Positions 29,357-61,258 of a DNA stretch of 64,000 bases are shown one piece after another. The notes under the pieces were generated by a model, which saw nothing but the letters and a program-made list of their open reading frames with translations, searched no databases and was not told the origin of the DNA. Positions within the stretch are counted from its first letter, which is position 1, and each line of letters begins with the position of its first letter. The stretch is from NCBI GenBank assembly GCA_945897885.1, contig CAMDGU010000004.1, forward strand, positions 1-64,000, in the 5' to 3' direction. This DNA comes from Chitinophaga pinensis (GTDB taxonomy: Bacteria > Bacteroidota > Bacteroidia > NS11-12g > UBA9320). Position numbers and translations under genes: made by a program.

Positions 29357-30667
29357 ATGACTACCGAAAAGAATAATCCCCGTGTGATGCAAGGCTGGGC
29401 AATGTATGATTGGGCCAATTCCGTTTACAATCTTGTAATAACTACAGCCATATTCCCCATTTTTTATGCTGCTCAAACTAGTCATATTGATTCACTATCC
29501 GGCGAAGTAATTAAAACCGTTTCGTTTTTGGGGTATCAATTCTCTAACACTGAGTTGTATAATTATGTCTTCGCATTAGCTTATTTGATAGTGGTTTTTA
29601 CAGCACCTTTATTGAGCGGAGTAGCTGATTTTACAGGGAATAAGAAGTTTTTTTTAAAGATATTTTGTTATTTGGGTGCATTGAGTTGTATGTGTCTTTA
29701 CTTTTTTGATAAAAACCATTTGGAGTGGAGCATGCTTCCTGTATTGCTGGCATGTGTTGGTTTTTGGGGAAGTTTGGTTTTTTATAATGCCTATTTACCA
29801 GAGATTGCTGATCCTCACCTGCATGATAAACTGAGTGCCAAGGGGTTTACCTTAGGTTATATTGGCAGCACACTTGTTTTAGTTTTGAGTTTAATCGCTA
29901 TTAAGATTTTTGAGGTACCGGCCAAATATATTTTTGTAATTGTTGGGATATGGTGGATTGGTTTTGCTCAAATTACTTACCGCCGACTTCCTAAATCACT
30001 GGCACGAAAATCAGCTTCTAATCCCCTTTTTAGTGGGTTTAAAGAAATTTTAAAGGTTAATAAAGAAATTATGAAATTAACGGTGCTTAAAAAGTTTCTC
30101 GCATCCTATTTCGTATACAACTGTGCGGTTCAAACGGTTTTAATTGTAGCCGTTCCATTTGCAAACAGTGAAATTTTTAAAGGAGAAGATAAATCAGGAT
30201 TAATAATAGCTGTCATTATAATACAACTGGTAGCTGCGGTTGGAGCAATGGTAATGAGCCGACTTTCCTCACGAATAGGAAACATCAGTGTTATAAAAAG
30301 CACTGTTTTTATTTGGATGTTAGGATGTATAATAGGTTACTTAATAAAAACCCCAACGGAGTTTTACTTTTTAGCAGCCTTGATTGGTTTTTTGATGGGG
30401 GGTATTCAGAGCATGAGTCGCAGTACTTTTGCCAAGCTATTGCCTGAAACAAACGACCACGCTTCGTTCTTTAGCTTTTATGATGTTTCAGAAAAAATAG
30501 GTTTGGTAATAGGAGTTTTCCTTTTTGGCTTTATTGAAGGTATAACTCACGATATGCGCCAAAGTATTTTACTCCTTATTGTCTTATTTGCTCTAGGATT
30601 TTTGTTGTTACTAAGAATAAATAAACATGATGCTTTAACCTTGAAGAAAGAGGAATTGGTGGCGTAA
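29357..30667 (+). CDS. MFS transporter (UMF1/Atg22-like)
   Basis: MYDWANSVYNLVITTAIFPIFY, 12-TM-like pattern, GGIQSMSRSTFAKLLPE. Confidence 0.88.
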   Translation: MTTEKNNPRVMQGWAMYDWANSVYNLVITTAIFPIFYAAQTSHIDSLSGEVIKTVSFLGYQFSNTELYNYVFALAYLIVVFTAPLLSGVADFTGNKKFFLKIFCYLGALSCMCLYFFDKNHLEWSMLPVLLACVGFWGSLVFYNAYLPEIADPHLHDKLSAKGFTLGYIGSTLVLVLSLIAIKIFEVPAKYIFVIVGIWWIGFAQITYRRLPKSLARKSASNPLFSGFKEILKVNKEIMKLTVLKKFLASYFVYNCAVQTVLIVAVPFANSEIFKGEDKSGLIIAVIIIQLVAAVGAMVMSRLSSRIGNISVIKSTVFIWMLGCIIGYLIKTPTEFYFLAALIGFLMGGIQSMSRSTFAKLLPETNDHASFFSFYDVSEKIGLVIGVFLFGFIEGITHDMRQSILLLIVLFALGFLLLLRINKHDALTLKKEELVA

Positions 30668-30683
30668 TTGTCTGAACCGCTGA

Positions 30684-30965
30684 TTAAACTGATTGTTGTG
30701 ATTTAGTTGATTTTCTTTTTTGATTAACACTATGTATAATCCCCACAATTAATCCTGTCAATCCACCTAGGTAACTAAAATTATGCATGGAACCTACAGA
30801 AATAAAGTTTTTGTAATCTTTTAAATTTTCAGGCAGAAACCAATTATCAAAATATTCTTTTGGTTTATATCCAAGAAAAAATTCACCATAAGCAAGTCCA
30901 ATAAGCCCTGTAATGAAAGCAATGATAACAGTTAAGAGGATAGACTTAAGAGCTATTATAAACAT
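30684..30965 (-). CDS. hypothetical small membrane protein
   Basis: Two hydrophobic helices. Confidence 0.55.
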   Translation of the reverse strand: MFIIALKSILLTVIIAFITGLIGLAYGEFFLGYKPKEYFDNWFLPENLKDYKNFISVGSMHNFSYLGGLTGLIVGIIHSVNQKRKSTKSQQSV

Positions 30966-30967
30966 TG

Positions 30968-31246
30968 TTATTCCATCTTTATGTTAAGTCCAACCAAACC
31001 TAATATAATTCCAATAGGTAGTCCCATCCACCATGTTGCTAAAAATCCAATTTGGGAAACAACCAGTCTTGGTCTTGCTAATATTGGGTGGTCTTCTTCA
31101 TGGATAAAACCAAATTGGATAAACTTAAATTTGGTGTAATACTCTGGAGAGATGGTATAAGTAATTTGGTCATGAATAATTCCGTAAACTCCAGCTATTA
31201 TTGGTGATATCAGAATTAAAATAAGGAGAGCAACTGTTTTTTTCAT
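30968..31246 (-). CDS. hypothetical small membrane protein
   Basis: Hydrophobic N- and C-termini, adjacent same-strand pair. Confidence 0.55.
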   Translation of the reverse strand: MKKTVALLILILISPIIAGVYGIIHDQITYTISPEYYTKFKFIQFGFIHEEDHPILARPRLVVSQIGFLATWWMGLPIGIILGLVGLNIKME

Positions 31247-31276
31247 TTAATCATACTAATCAACATAATCAGCGGT

Positions 31277-34096
31277 TCAGACAGTTATTTTATCCTTCAA
31301 ATATTTCCCCGTATAACTCTCCCCACATTTTACCAATCCTTCTGGAGTTCCTTCATATAATAGGTTTCCTCCATTTTGTCCGCCATCAGGGCCTATGTCA
31401 ATAACCCAATCGGCACATTTTATAACTTCCACATTGTGCTCAATAATAAGAATGGTATGCCCTTGAGCTATTAGCGCATTAAAGGAGGCTAATAGTTTTT
31501 TAATATCATTAAAATGCAGTCCGGTGGTAGGTTCATCAAAAATGAACAGAACGGGCTCGGGATTTTTACCCATGGAAAGGAAGGATGCCAATTTAACCCT
31601 TTGGGCTTCGCCGCCGCTTAATGTGGCACTGCTTTGGCCAAGGGTTACATAGCCCAAACCTACATCAAATAATGGTTTTAGTTTATTTATAATATTTGGT
31701 TTGCCATCAAAAAATGAAATGGCTTCTTCCACGGTCATGCACAATATATCGTATATGGATTTTGATTTATAGGTTACCTCCAACACTTCGTCTTTAAAAC
31801 GATGGCCTTTGCACGATTCGCAAGTAAGGTGTAAATCAGCCATAAACTGCATTTCTACCAGTTCTTCTCCTTCGCCTTTGCATTGCTCGCATCGGCCACC
31901 TTCCACGTTAAAGGAATAATGTTGTGGCTTAAATCCTTTTTGCTTGCTGTGCGGTTGGTCTGCAAATAAATCACGAATATGGTCCCAAGCTTTTACATAG
32001 GTAACCGGGTTGCTTCGGGTGGATTTTCCAATAGGATTTTGGTCTATCAGTTCCACCAGCTTTATTTGTTTAATATCGCCTGAAATACCATCAATATCGC
32101 CAGTTCTCAAGGCTGTAAAATTTCCAATAGCTTTTTGCAAAGCGGGGTAGAGGATACCTTTAACCAAGGACGTTTTGCCGCTGCCACTTACTCCGGTAAC
32201 ACACGTAATTATGTTAAGCGGAAACTTAACATCAATATTTTTAAGGTTATTTAATCGGGCCCCTTTTATTTCAATAAAATTGCTCCATTGTCTGCGTTGT
32301 GTCGGTACTTCTATTTTAACTTTACCGGTTAGGTATTGCCCTGTAAGGCTTTCACTTGTATAAATGTCTTTAAAATCGCCCTGAAAAACAACGTGCCCTC
32401 CGTGAGTTCCGGCCAAAGGACCAATATCAATTAGCTGGTCGCTTGCAGCCATCATTTCTTCATCGTGTTCTACTACAACTACCGAATTGCCCATGTTTCT
32501 TAAATTTTGAAGTACACCAATTAATCGTTCGGTATCGCGGGGATGCAAGCCAATACTAGGTTCATCTAAAATATAAGTGCTACCAACCAAACTGCTTCCA
32601 AGCGAAGTAGCCAGATTTATACGTTGCGATTCGCCACCACTTAAGGAATTGCTCAATCGGTTAAGCGATAAATAGCCAAGGCCAACATCTTTGAGGTAAA
32701 GGAGTCGGTTTTTAATTTCTGTTAAAAGACGAACCGATATTTTTTCGTCGTTGTCTTCTAATTTTAAAGTATCAAAATAATTAAAAGCATTTTCAACCGG
32801 TAGTAATAAAATATCACTGATGGAGGCAAATTTATCCCTAAACTTAAATTCAGCACTTAATTTGTTGGTATGTAAAAGTTTGATGTATTCAGCATCTTTT
32901 CGCAATCTAACCCCACGGCATTCGGGGCATAGCGTTTTCCCACGATACTTGCTAAGCATCACTCTGTACTGAATTTTATAGGATTGTTCTTCAATAAATT
33001 TAAAGAATTGGTTGATACCTAAAATATGGTTTTTGCCTTGCCACAATAAGTCTTTTTCTTCATCGGATAATAAATAATAGGAGCGGTGAATTGGGAAATC
33101 AAGTTTGGCGGTGGTTGCAATAAAGGTTGCTTTCCATTCACTCATACCTTCGCTTCGCCACGGAGCTACAGCTCCTTCAAACACCGACATATTTTTATCA
33201 GGAATAACCAAATCCTCGTCCACACCTATCACCGTTCCAAAACCTTCGCAGCGTTTGCAAGCTCCGTAAGGATTATTAAAACTCAAAAGATTTACGGAAG
33301 GTTTTTCAAATTTTATTCCGTCTTGTTCAAATTTGTTAGAGAAATTGTGCCAGGTATCTTTACCTTCTTTCCTCACCAAAATACTTATTTCGCCCATGCC
33401 TTCATAAAAAGCAGTTTGCACAGAATCAGCCATGCGGCTATCCTGACAAGTATCTGTATTGTCTTTTACAAGACGGTCAATGATTAAATACGAATTTTTT
33501 AAGGTTATTTTATTTTCTTGTAAAATGTCTTCAATTTTTACTAAGCCGCCGTTTTGCCAAAGCCGTGTAAAGCCATTCAGCATCAAAACCTTTATTTTTT
33601 CTTCGGCTTTTTTATCGTCTTGCAGTTTTACACAGATATAAAGTTGGATGCCTTCGGGTTGTTCAATCAAAAAATTAACCACATCTTTTACTTCAAAACA
33701 TTTTACCTCCTTGCCACTCACCGGGCTAATGGTGTGGCCTGCCCGAGCAAATAAAAGCTTTAAATATTCATAAATTTCGGTACTGGTGGCTACGGTGCTT
33801 CGCGGATTTCGGGTATTTACTTTTTGCTCAATAGCAATAGATGGCGACAACCCTTTGATATAATCCACTTCGGGTTTTTCCAATTTACCCAAAAACTGCC
33901 GGGCATAAGAAGAAAGACTTTCCACATAACGGCGTTGGCCTTCGGCAAAAAGTGTATCAAAAACCAGTGATGATTTGCCTGAACCTGAAACCCCGGTAAC
34001 TACTACCAGTTTGTTTCGCGGAATATTAATATCAATATTTTTAAGATTATGAAGCCGGGCTCCTTTTATTTCTATAAATTTTTCTTTTGGGGTCAC
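31277..34096 (-). CDS. uvrA: excinuclease ABC subunit A
   Basis: [35 protein letters not shown], Zn-fingers [10 protein letters not shown] / [21 protein letters not shown]. Confidence 0.98.
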
Positions 34097-60472: not shown

Positions 60473-60503
60473 TTTGAGTTAAAGGGTAATATTGCTATTT
60501 TTG
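60473..60503 (+). promoter_or_regulatory. promoter of tRNA-His / DUF4399 unit
   Basis: TTTG (60473-60476)-N19-TATTTTTG (60496-60503). Confidence 0.75.
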
Positions 60504-60553
60504 CAACCCTAAACAAATAAAAGGTTTAATAACCCAACAATTTGTTAAAAAAT

Positions 60554-60631
60554 GGTGATTGTAGCTCAGTTGGTTAGAGTGCCTGATTGTGGTTCAGGAG
60601 GTCGCGGGTTCGAGCCCCGTCTTTCACCCCA
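60554..60631 (+). tRNA. tRNA-His (GUG), CCA encoded
   Basis: G-1 plus GTGATTG acceptor, anticodon loop TTGTGGT, T arm GCGGG-TTCGAGC-CCCGT, CTTTCAC-C-CCA. Confidence 0.93.
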
Positions 60632-60632
60632 A

Positions 60633-61100
60633 ATGAAAAATCTTCTTTTAGTTCTTGTTATTGCCGGTTTATTTTCATGTTCTCTGTCAAGTGATAACAG
60701 TGCGTCCCAAGCAGATTCAACTGCCACTCTTAATGCAGCTCCTGTTGATGTTTTGGATACCACAGGTGGTAAAGGCGTATTTTTTGTTGAACTAAAAGAT
60801 AGCCAAGAAGTAAAAAGCCCGGTTATGGTTAAGATGGGTGTAAACGGCATGGAAATAGAACCTGCCGGAGCCATAAATGAACTAAAAGGTCATCACCATA
60901 TTATTATTGATGGTGAAGCTACCCCTGAAGGTCAGCCAGTATTATTAGATGAAACCCATTTCCACTTTGGACAAGGGCAAACGGAATCAGAAATGAAACT
61001 TTCTTCAGGTTTTCATACAATTACATTGCAGTTTGCCAATGGTGTGCATGCTTCCTACGGTTCACGTTGGAGCAAAACCATTACAGTGAAAGTTAAATAA
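60633..61100 (+). CDS. DUF4399-like lipoprotein
   Basis: MKNLLLVLVIAGLFSCSLS lipobox; ELKGHHHIIIDGE...HFHFGQGQTESEMKLSSGFHTITLQFANGVHASYG; track ORF start lies inside the tRNA. Confidence 0.85.
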   Translation: MKNLLLVLVIAGLFSCSLSSDNSASQADSTATLNAAPVDVLDTTGGKGVFFVELKDSQEVKSPVMVKMGVNGMEIEPAGAINELKGHHHIIIDGEATPEGQPVLLDETHFHFGQGQTESEMKLSSGFHTITLQFANGVHASYGSRWSKTITVKVK

Positions 61101-61258
61101 AGGTTTTTTCCTTTTTAGCTTCATTCTGTTTAATTTATTACTTATTTCATTTTCTATATCCATAGGCGAGGAATAGCTAACCAATAATAATAGGTTTTTA
61201 TCGAAAGCTTTTTGAAGTTTTTGAATCTTTAGGATTTAATTTGCGCAAAATTATAACT

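Follow-up and report, generated by a model that had tools for sequence, protein, structure and literature searches.

The tRNA-His/DUF4399 locus

The window, by which we mean the whole 64,000-nucleotide stretch of DNA analysed (from the genome labelled G000), carries a tRNA-His gene that is separated by a single base from the start codon of a gene for a DUF4399 lipoprotein. The features relevant to this arrangement, and the gene of one processing enzyme elsewhere in the window, are:

60473..60503, + strand: sigma-A promoter of the Bacteroidota type, recognised from the sequence (-33 element TTTG at 60473-60476, N19, -7 element TATTTTTG at 60496-60503)
60509..60553, + strand: predicted 5' leader of pre-tRNA-His, an RNase P substrate, as deduced from the promoter position and the tRNA start
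60554..60631, + strand: tRNA-His(GUG), with G-1 at 60554, the body at 60555-60628 and an encoded CCA at 60629-60631
60632..60632, + strand: spacer of one base (A), from the sequence
60633..61100, + strand: DUF4399 lipoprotein ORF (PF14347), 155 aa, beginning MKNLLLVLVIAGLFSC with a lipobox, aligned with relatives and predicted to be leaderless
61099..61116, + strand: weak candidate terminator (AAAGG-TTTTTT-CCTTT-TT), found by eye and overlapping the stop codon
47062..48351, - strand: RNase E/G, which might carry out the 3' processing instead (TIGR00757, 414 bits; PF10150, E 7e-88)

A sequence-only reading of this DNA had reported a TTTG-N19-TATTTTTG promoter before tRNA-His, an encoded CCA ending at 60631 and an ATG at 60633. 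The promoter is present, ARAGORN calls tRNA-His(GTG) at 60555-60631, and the sequence has the CCA and the ATG at the positions given. The predicted transcription start from this promoter is at about 60508-60509, and sequence comparison showed the same promoter in front of tRNA-His in the related genomes G003, G004 and G006. The tRNA-His gene is single-copy in its genome (RF00005 search of the own genome and DNA search), where just 5 of about 31 tRNA genes encode their CCA (the tRNA survey of the own genome comprised 30 loci). Its acceptor stem has two U-U mismatches in a row, 5-68 and 6-67 (GTGRTTG / CTTYCAC), a trait of the genus and most of the family that is absent from the tRNA-His of G010; these mismatches could affect recognition by RNase P or RNase Z.

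The coding part of the ORF extends from 60633 to 61097 and is followed by the stop codon. The encoded protein matches the PF14347 (DUF4399) profile with 104.3 bits (E 4e-30), above the gathering cut-off of 28, and a signal peptide with a lipobox Cys was recognised by eye in MKNLLLVLVIAGLFSC and in the aligned relatives. In an alignment, the N-termini of the homologues from G006, G004 and G003 begin at the corresponding Met and include the lipobox Cys, so that the ATG at 60633 is sound as the start, in line with the earlier proposal that the lipobox fixes it. Downstream of the ORF, the weak candidate terminator in the window was not flagged by terminator scans; strong terminators occur 3' of the ORF in G004 and G006. 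DUF4399 is also common in Proteobacteria, and in Burkholderiales (L102-L169) the DUF4399 gene of Paraburkholderia and relatives is repeatedly located about 0.7-1.2 kb from tRNA-Arg(CCT).

Conservation and rarity of the abutment

The close abutment of tRNA-His and DUF4399, for which a comparison with related genomes had been suggested, is kept in the genus: a single nucleotide separates tRNA and ATG in G000 and in G006, and two do so in G004. The DUF4399 proteins of G004 and G006 are 70-77% identical to that of the window. At the nucleotide level the ORFs of these two genomes differ from that of G000 with a dS of 1.6-1.9 and a dN of 0.15-0.21, while dS between G004 and G006 is 0.8; across the abutting species dN is 0.08-0.21 against a dS of 0.8-1.9. 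The spacer remained short while synonymous sites neared saturation and, on this comparison, the abutment is not an isolated accident.

Two overlapping sets of genomes, 110 from the order and 393 from the class, were searched for the pattern GTTCRANNC-N12-CCA-N0-3-ATGAAA, which detects tRNAs with an encoded CCA followed by ORFs starting with ATGAAA and is blind to others. Only in G000, G004 and G006 does a real tRNA precede an ORF that reaches 100 aa; the remaining matches were ORFs of 2-99 aa after tRNAs (tiny ORFs within A-rich trailers) or did not involve tRNAs. A 224 aa lipoprotein (L188) was considered as a further case and rejected, as ARAGORN finds no tRNA there.

The three abutting species of this MAG-based lineage form a clade (support 0.96) when ParC is analysed together with outgroups, and G003 is their sister. 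The RNase E/G tree alone and a partly filled concatenation gave a weak or conflicting placement of G000 versus G003; a concatenated tree whose gyrA row for G000 is in a wrong frame was left out of account. In the two most distant members of the genus (G002 at L212, G001 at L213), an ORF of about 390 aa, OmpA/SPOR-like by eye, replaces DUF4399 between tRNA-His and an M16 peptidase gene.

A second tRNA-mRNA pair with a short spacer consists of tRNA-Ser(GGA) and, after about 22 nt without a terminator, a 483-aa ORF that appears phosphotransferase-like by eye (L089:1501-3059 in G000:C42; L247, L248). Short spacers are found for this pair in G001 and G002 as well, while the counterpart of the 483-aa ORF in G006 has no tRNA upstream and is preceded instead by a TAACTTTG box.

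Loss of terminator, spacer and promoter

The gene order tRNA-His to DUF4399 is old in the family and is also found outside it. In most family relatives, tRNA-His is followed by a terminator (a hairpin and T-run) and then by a separate promoter for DUF4399. The -7 box of this promoter, TANNTTTG, retains 5-6 of its 6 fixed bases, and 4-5 nt separate its end from the ATG. In the same DNA, just 0.5% of random ATGs have a 6/6 box at that distance. G010 is an exception with no box at 4-5 nt; its TACCTTCG is located 15 nt upstream of the ATG. Since transcription in F. johnsoniae starts 4-5 nt after the -7 box (PMC6847099), the spacer-bearing relatives are expected to begin theirs close to the ATG and so to produce a leaderless DUF4399 mRNA.

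A variable spacer with an independent promoter in relatives had been named in the sequence-only reading as evidence against its proposal. More distant relatives do show this arrangement, with roughly 55-300 nt between tRNA and ORF and a promoter for the latter, but the abutting clade does not. The distant cases speak for the proposal, since transcription from their promoter would begin close to the ATG. On these comparisons, leaderlessness of the DUF4399 mRNA looks like the older state.

G003 is intermediate: its tRNA encodes the CCA, no terminator follows, the spacer measures 55 nt, and DUF4399 has an own -7 box located 7 nt upstream of the ATG. G000, G004 and G006 have lost the spacer, the terminator and the DUF4399 promoter alike. 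The view that a separate DUF4399 promoter has neither room nor trace here is upheld, the best -7 match being 3/6 compared with 5-6/6 in nearly all spacer-bearing relatives. Outside the genus, G029, G056, L109 and L119 have read-through spacers of 15-20 nt, counted from N73, without a terminator or an own promoter.

Transcription unit and proposed processing

A promoter is present upstream of tRNA-His and none between tRNA and ORF; the 1-2 nt gap contains no terminator, and the ORF is followed by one, which is strong in G004 and G006 but only a weak candidate in the case of the window. Read from this anatomy, it is well supported that tRNA-His and the DUF4399 lipoprotein gene form one transcription unit, with the tRNA promoter as its only recognisable source. 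The abutment is also such that excision of the tRNA would leave a leader within the range of 0-3 nt (1, 1 and 2 nt in the three species).

We favour the following explanation and consider it probable, though with considerable reservation. The tRNA-His promoter alone would drive a two-gene transcript of tRNA-His and the lipoprotein ORF, and RNase P would trim the 5' end of the tRNA. We infer that an endonuclease, most likely RNase Z, then cuts at the encoded CCA or one base later and so frees the tRNA, and that the remaining mRNA, beginning AAUG or AUG (or CCAAAUG), is translated as a leaderless message. Formerly, a leaderless DUF4399 mRNA would have come from the gene's own promoter 4-5 nt before the ATG, as in the family relatives; the ancestor of the three species would have lost terminator, spacer and promoter, with tRNA 3' processing taking over the definition of the 5' end. 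A stronger version would be a bacterial counterpart of mitochondrial tRNA punctuation: in the genus, the 5' end of the conserved leaderless lipoprotein mRNA would come from nothing but the excision of the essential single-copy tRNA-His, in place of an ancestral promoter that started at the same base. This version seems to us about evenly poised between right and wrong. Regulation of lipoprotein output through tRNA-His maturation we regard only as a possibility.

With respect to the enzymes, the RNase Z gene in G000 scores 289.5, just below the curated cut-off of 292.95; those in G001, G002, G004 and G006 score above it, and a profile search found no full-length RNase Z in G003. RNase E/G acts in trans, and its presence inside the window is by chance. 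RNase PH, one of the usual trimming exonucleases, was looked for in the genome and is absent.

In vitro, RNase Zs place their cut in CCA-encoding pre-tRNAs directly behind the CCA in 70-90% of cases and one nucleotide later in 10-30%, and this includes the enzyme of B. subtilis when supplied with Co2+ (PMC7479834); at this tRNA-His, such cuts would give AAUG or AUG ends. From RNase Z biochemistry, the predicted 5' end of the processed mRNA is 60632 or 60633, or 60629 if the cut is made after N73. In P. acnes, cuts occur between the Cs of the encoded CCA (PMC3848588); by analogy, such a cut at this tRNA-His would give CAAAUG. If tRNA-His were instead matured by an exonuclease after a more downstream cut, this would destroy the start of the ORF. 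Leaderless messages are a minority in flavobacteria, with 5.5% of F. psychrophilum mRNAs (PMC9723704), and leaders of 10 nt or less account for about 13% in F. johnsoniae (PMC6847099).

Alternative explanations

The two genes might be co-transcribed with translation initiating internally, on a precursor that is uncut or cut only at the 5' side, so that tRNA 3' maturation destroys the message. Bacteroidota can do without Shine-Dalgarno sequences (PMC6847099), and RNase Z can be blocked by the CCA, which inhibits the B. subtilis enzyme about 1500-fold with Mg2+; in E. coli, CCA tRNAs are known to mature exonucleolytically (PMC7479834). However, positions -20 to -1 are here the acceptor and T arm of the tRNA, and folding predicts the initiation region to be paired (0.68) before the cut and largely open (paired 0.03-0.13) after a cut at 60629-60632, values that are approximate as the nearest-neighbour-energy fold did not return the cloverleaf. 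In F. johnsoniae, initiation is favoured by open structure near the start (PMC6847099). The absence of RNase PH also speaks against this reading, and we consider internal initiation unlikely.

Still less likely, in our view, is a promoter hidden within the tRNA gene, from which transcription would begin at the ATG or close to it and give a leaderless primary mRNA. The relatives appear to make just such an mRNA from a promoter immediately 5' of the ATG, and our scan covered only promoters of the sigma-A type, not those of alternative sigma factors. Yet at a suitable distance no -7 match is better than CGTCTTTC, and with 3/6 bases a hidden sigma-A promoter was rejected. Moreover, G003 has the same tRNA 3' sequence and nonetheless keeps a separate -7 box, and there is little freedom in a tRNA sequence.

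Neutral drift, that is, loss of terminator and spacer followed by read-through with poor or incidental expression and without special use of tRNA processing, would be compatible with a MAG-based lineage in which only three species show the abutment, and with the short tRNA-ORF spacers at other loci (L089). We nevertheless think it very improbable. With dN well below dS, selection acts on the DUF4399 protein, which must therefore be expressed; furthermore, the spacer stayed at 1-2 nt, and in G004 and G006 the unit is closed by terminators 3' of the ORF.

Finally, the idea that the true ORF is a frame of 182 aa running from 60552 through the tRNA, with the abutment as a mere in-frame overlap, can be dismissed: the frame is open in G000, but it is shifted in G004 by the 2 nt spacer, it buries the signal peptide and the lipobox, and the homologues begin at the lipoprotein Met.

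Comparison with known systems

If processing of tRNA-His indeed generates the lipoprotein message, the locus is a natural case of a leaderless mRNA made by tRNA processing taking over from one made by a promoter, with the evolutionary series preserved in living relatives. It would open three questions to experiment: do bacterial ribosomes accept leaderless mRNAs that tRNA maturation releases with a 5'-monophosphate, how are CCA-encoding tRNAs matured in Bacteroidota when RNase PH is missing, and by what steps could tRNA punctuation originate? In the full-text literature, a coverage that most subscription papers lie outside, we found no report of bacterial tRNA excision producing a leaderless mRNA, and nothing on the function of DUF4399.

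In mitochondrial tRNA punctuation, RNase P and RNase Z (ELAC2) excise tRNAs and leave leaderless mRNAs. As there, a tRNA here abuts an ORF (at 1-2 nt), and its excision would set a leaderless mRNA 5' end; the mitochondrial process, however, applies to a whole polycistronic genome, whereas we propose cleavage in a single two-gene unit on a bacterial chromosome.

Bacterial tRNA-mRNA operons are exemplified by thrU-tyrU-glyT-thrT-tufB (PMC6134099), in which a tRNA promoter likewise drives a downstream protein gene. Such operons have an ordinary spacer that permits a normal leader, while tRNA-His/DUF4399 has no room for one. In the own genome, tRNA-Thr-Tyr-Gly-Thr is positioned 98 nt upstream of an EF-Tu gene, with tRNA-Trp beyond (L065, G000:C1 about 30550-32342).

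Leaderless mRNAs made directly by promoters occur, for example, in actinobacteria. Like the proposed message, they carry their AUG at the very 5' end or directly beside it, and the DUF4399 mRNA of the relatives appears to belong to them; for the abutting species we expect a processed monophosphate 5' end rather than a primary triphosphate. The leaderless mRNAs made by MazF in E. coli (mentioned in PMC3848588) are also generated by an endonuclease; MazF, however, is a stress toxin, while a housekeeping step of tRNA processing is proposed here. As read from the DNA, the anatomy of the locus is that of bacterial tRNA-mRNA operons like the one of tufB, minus the leader.
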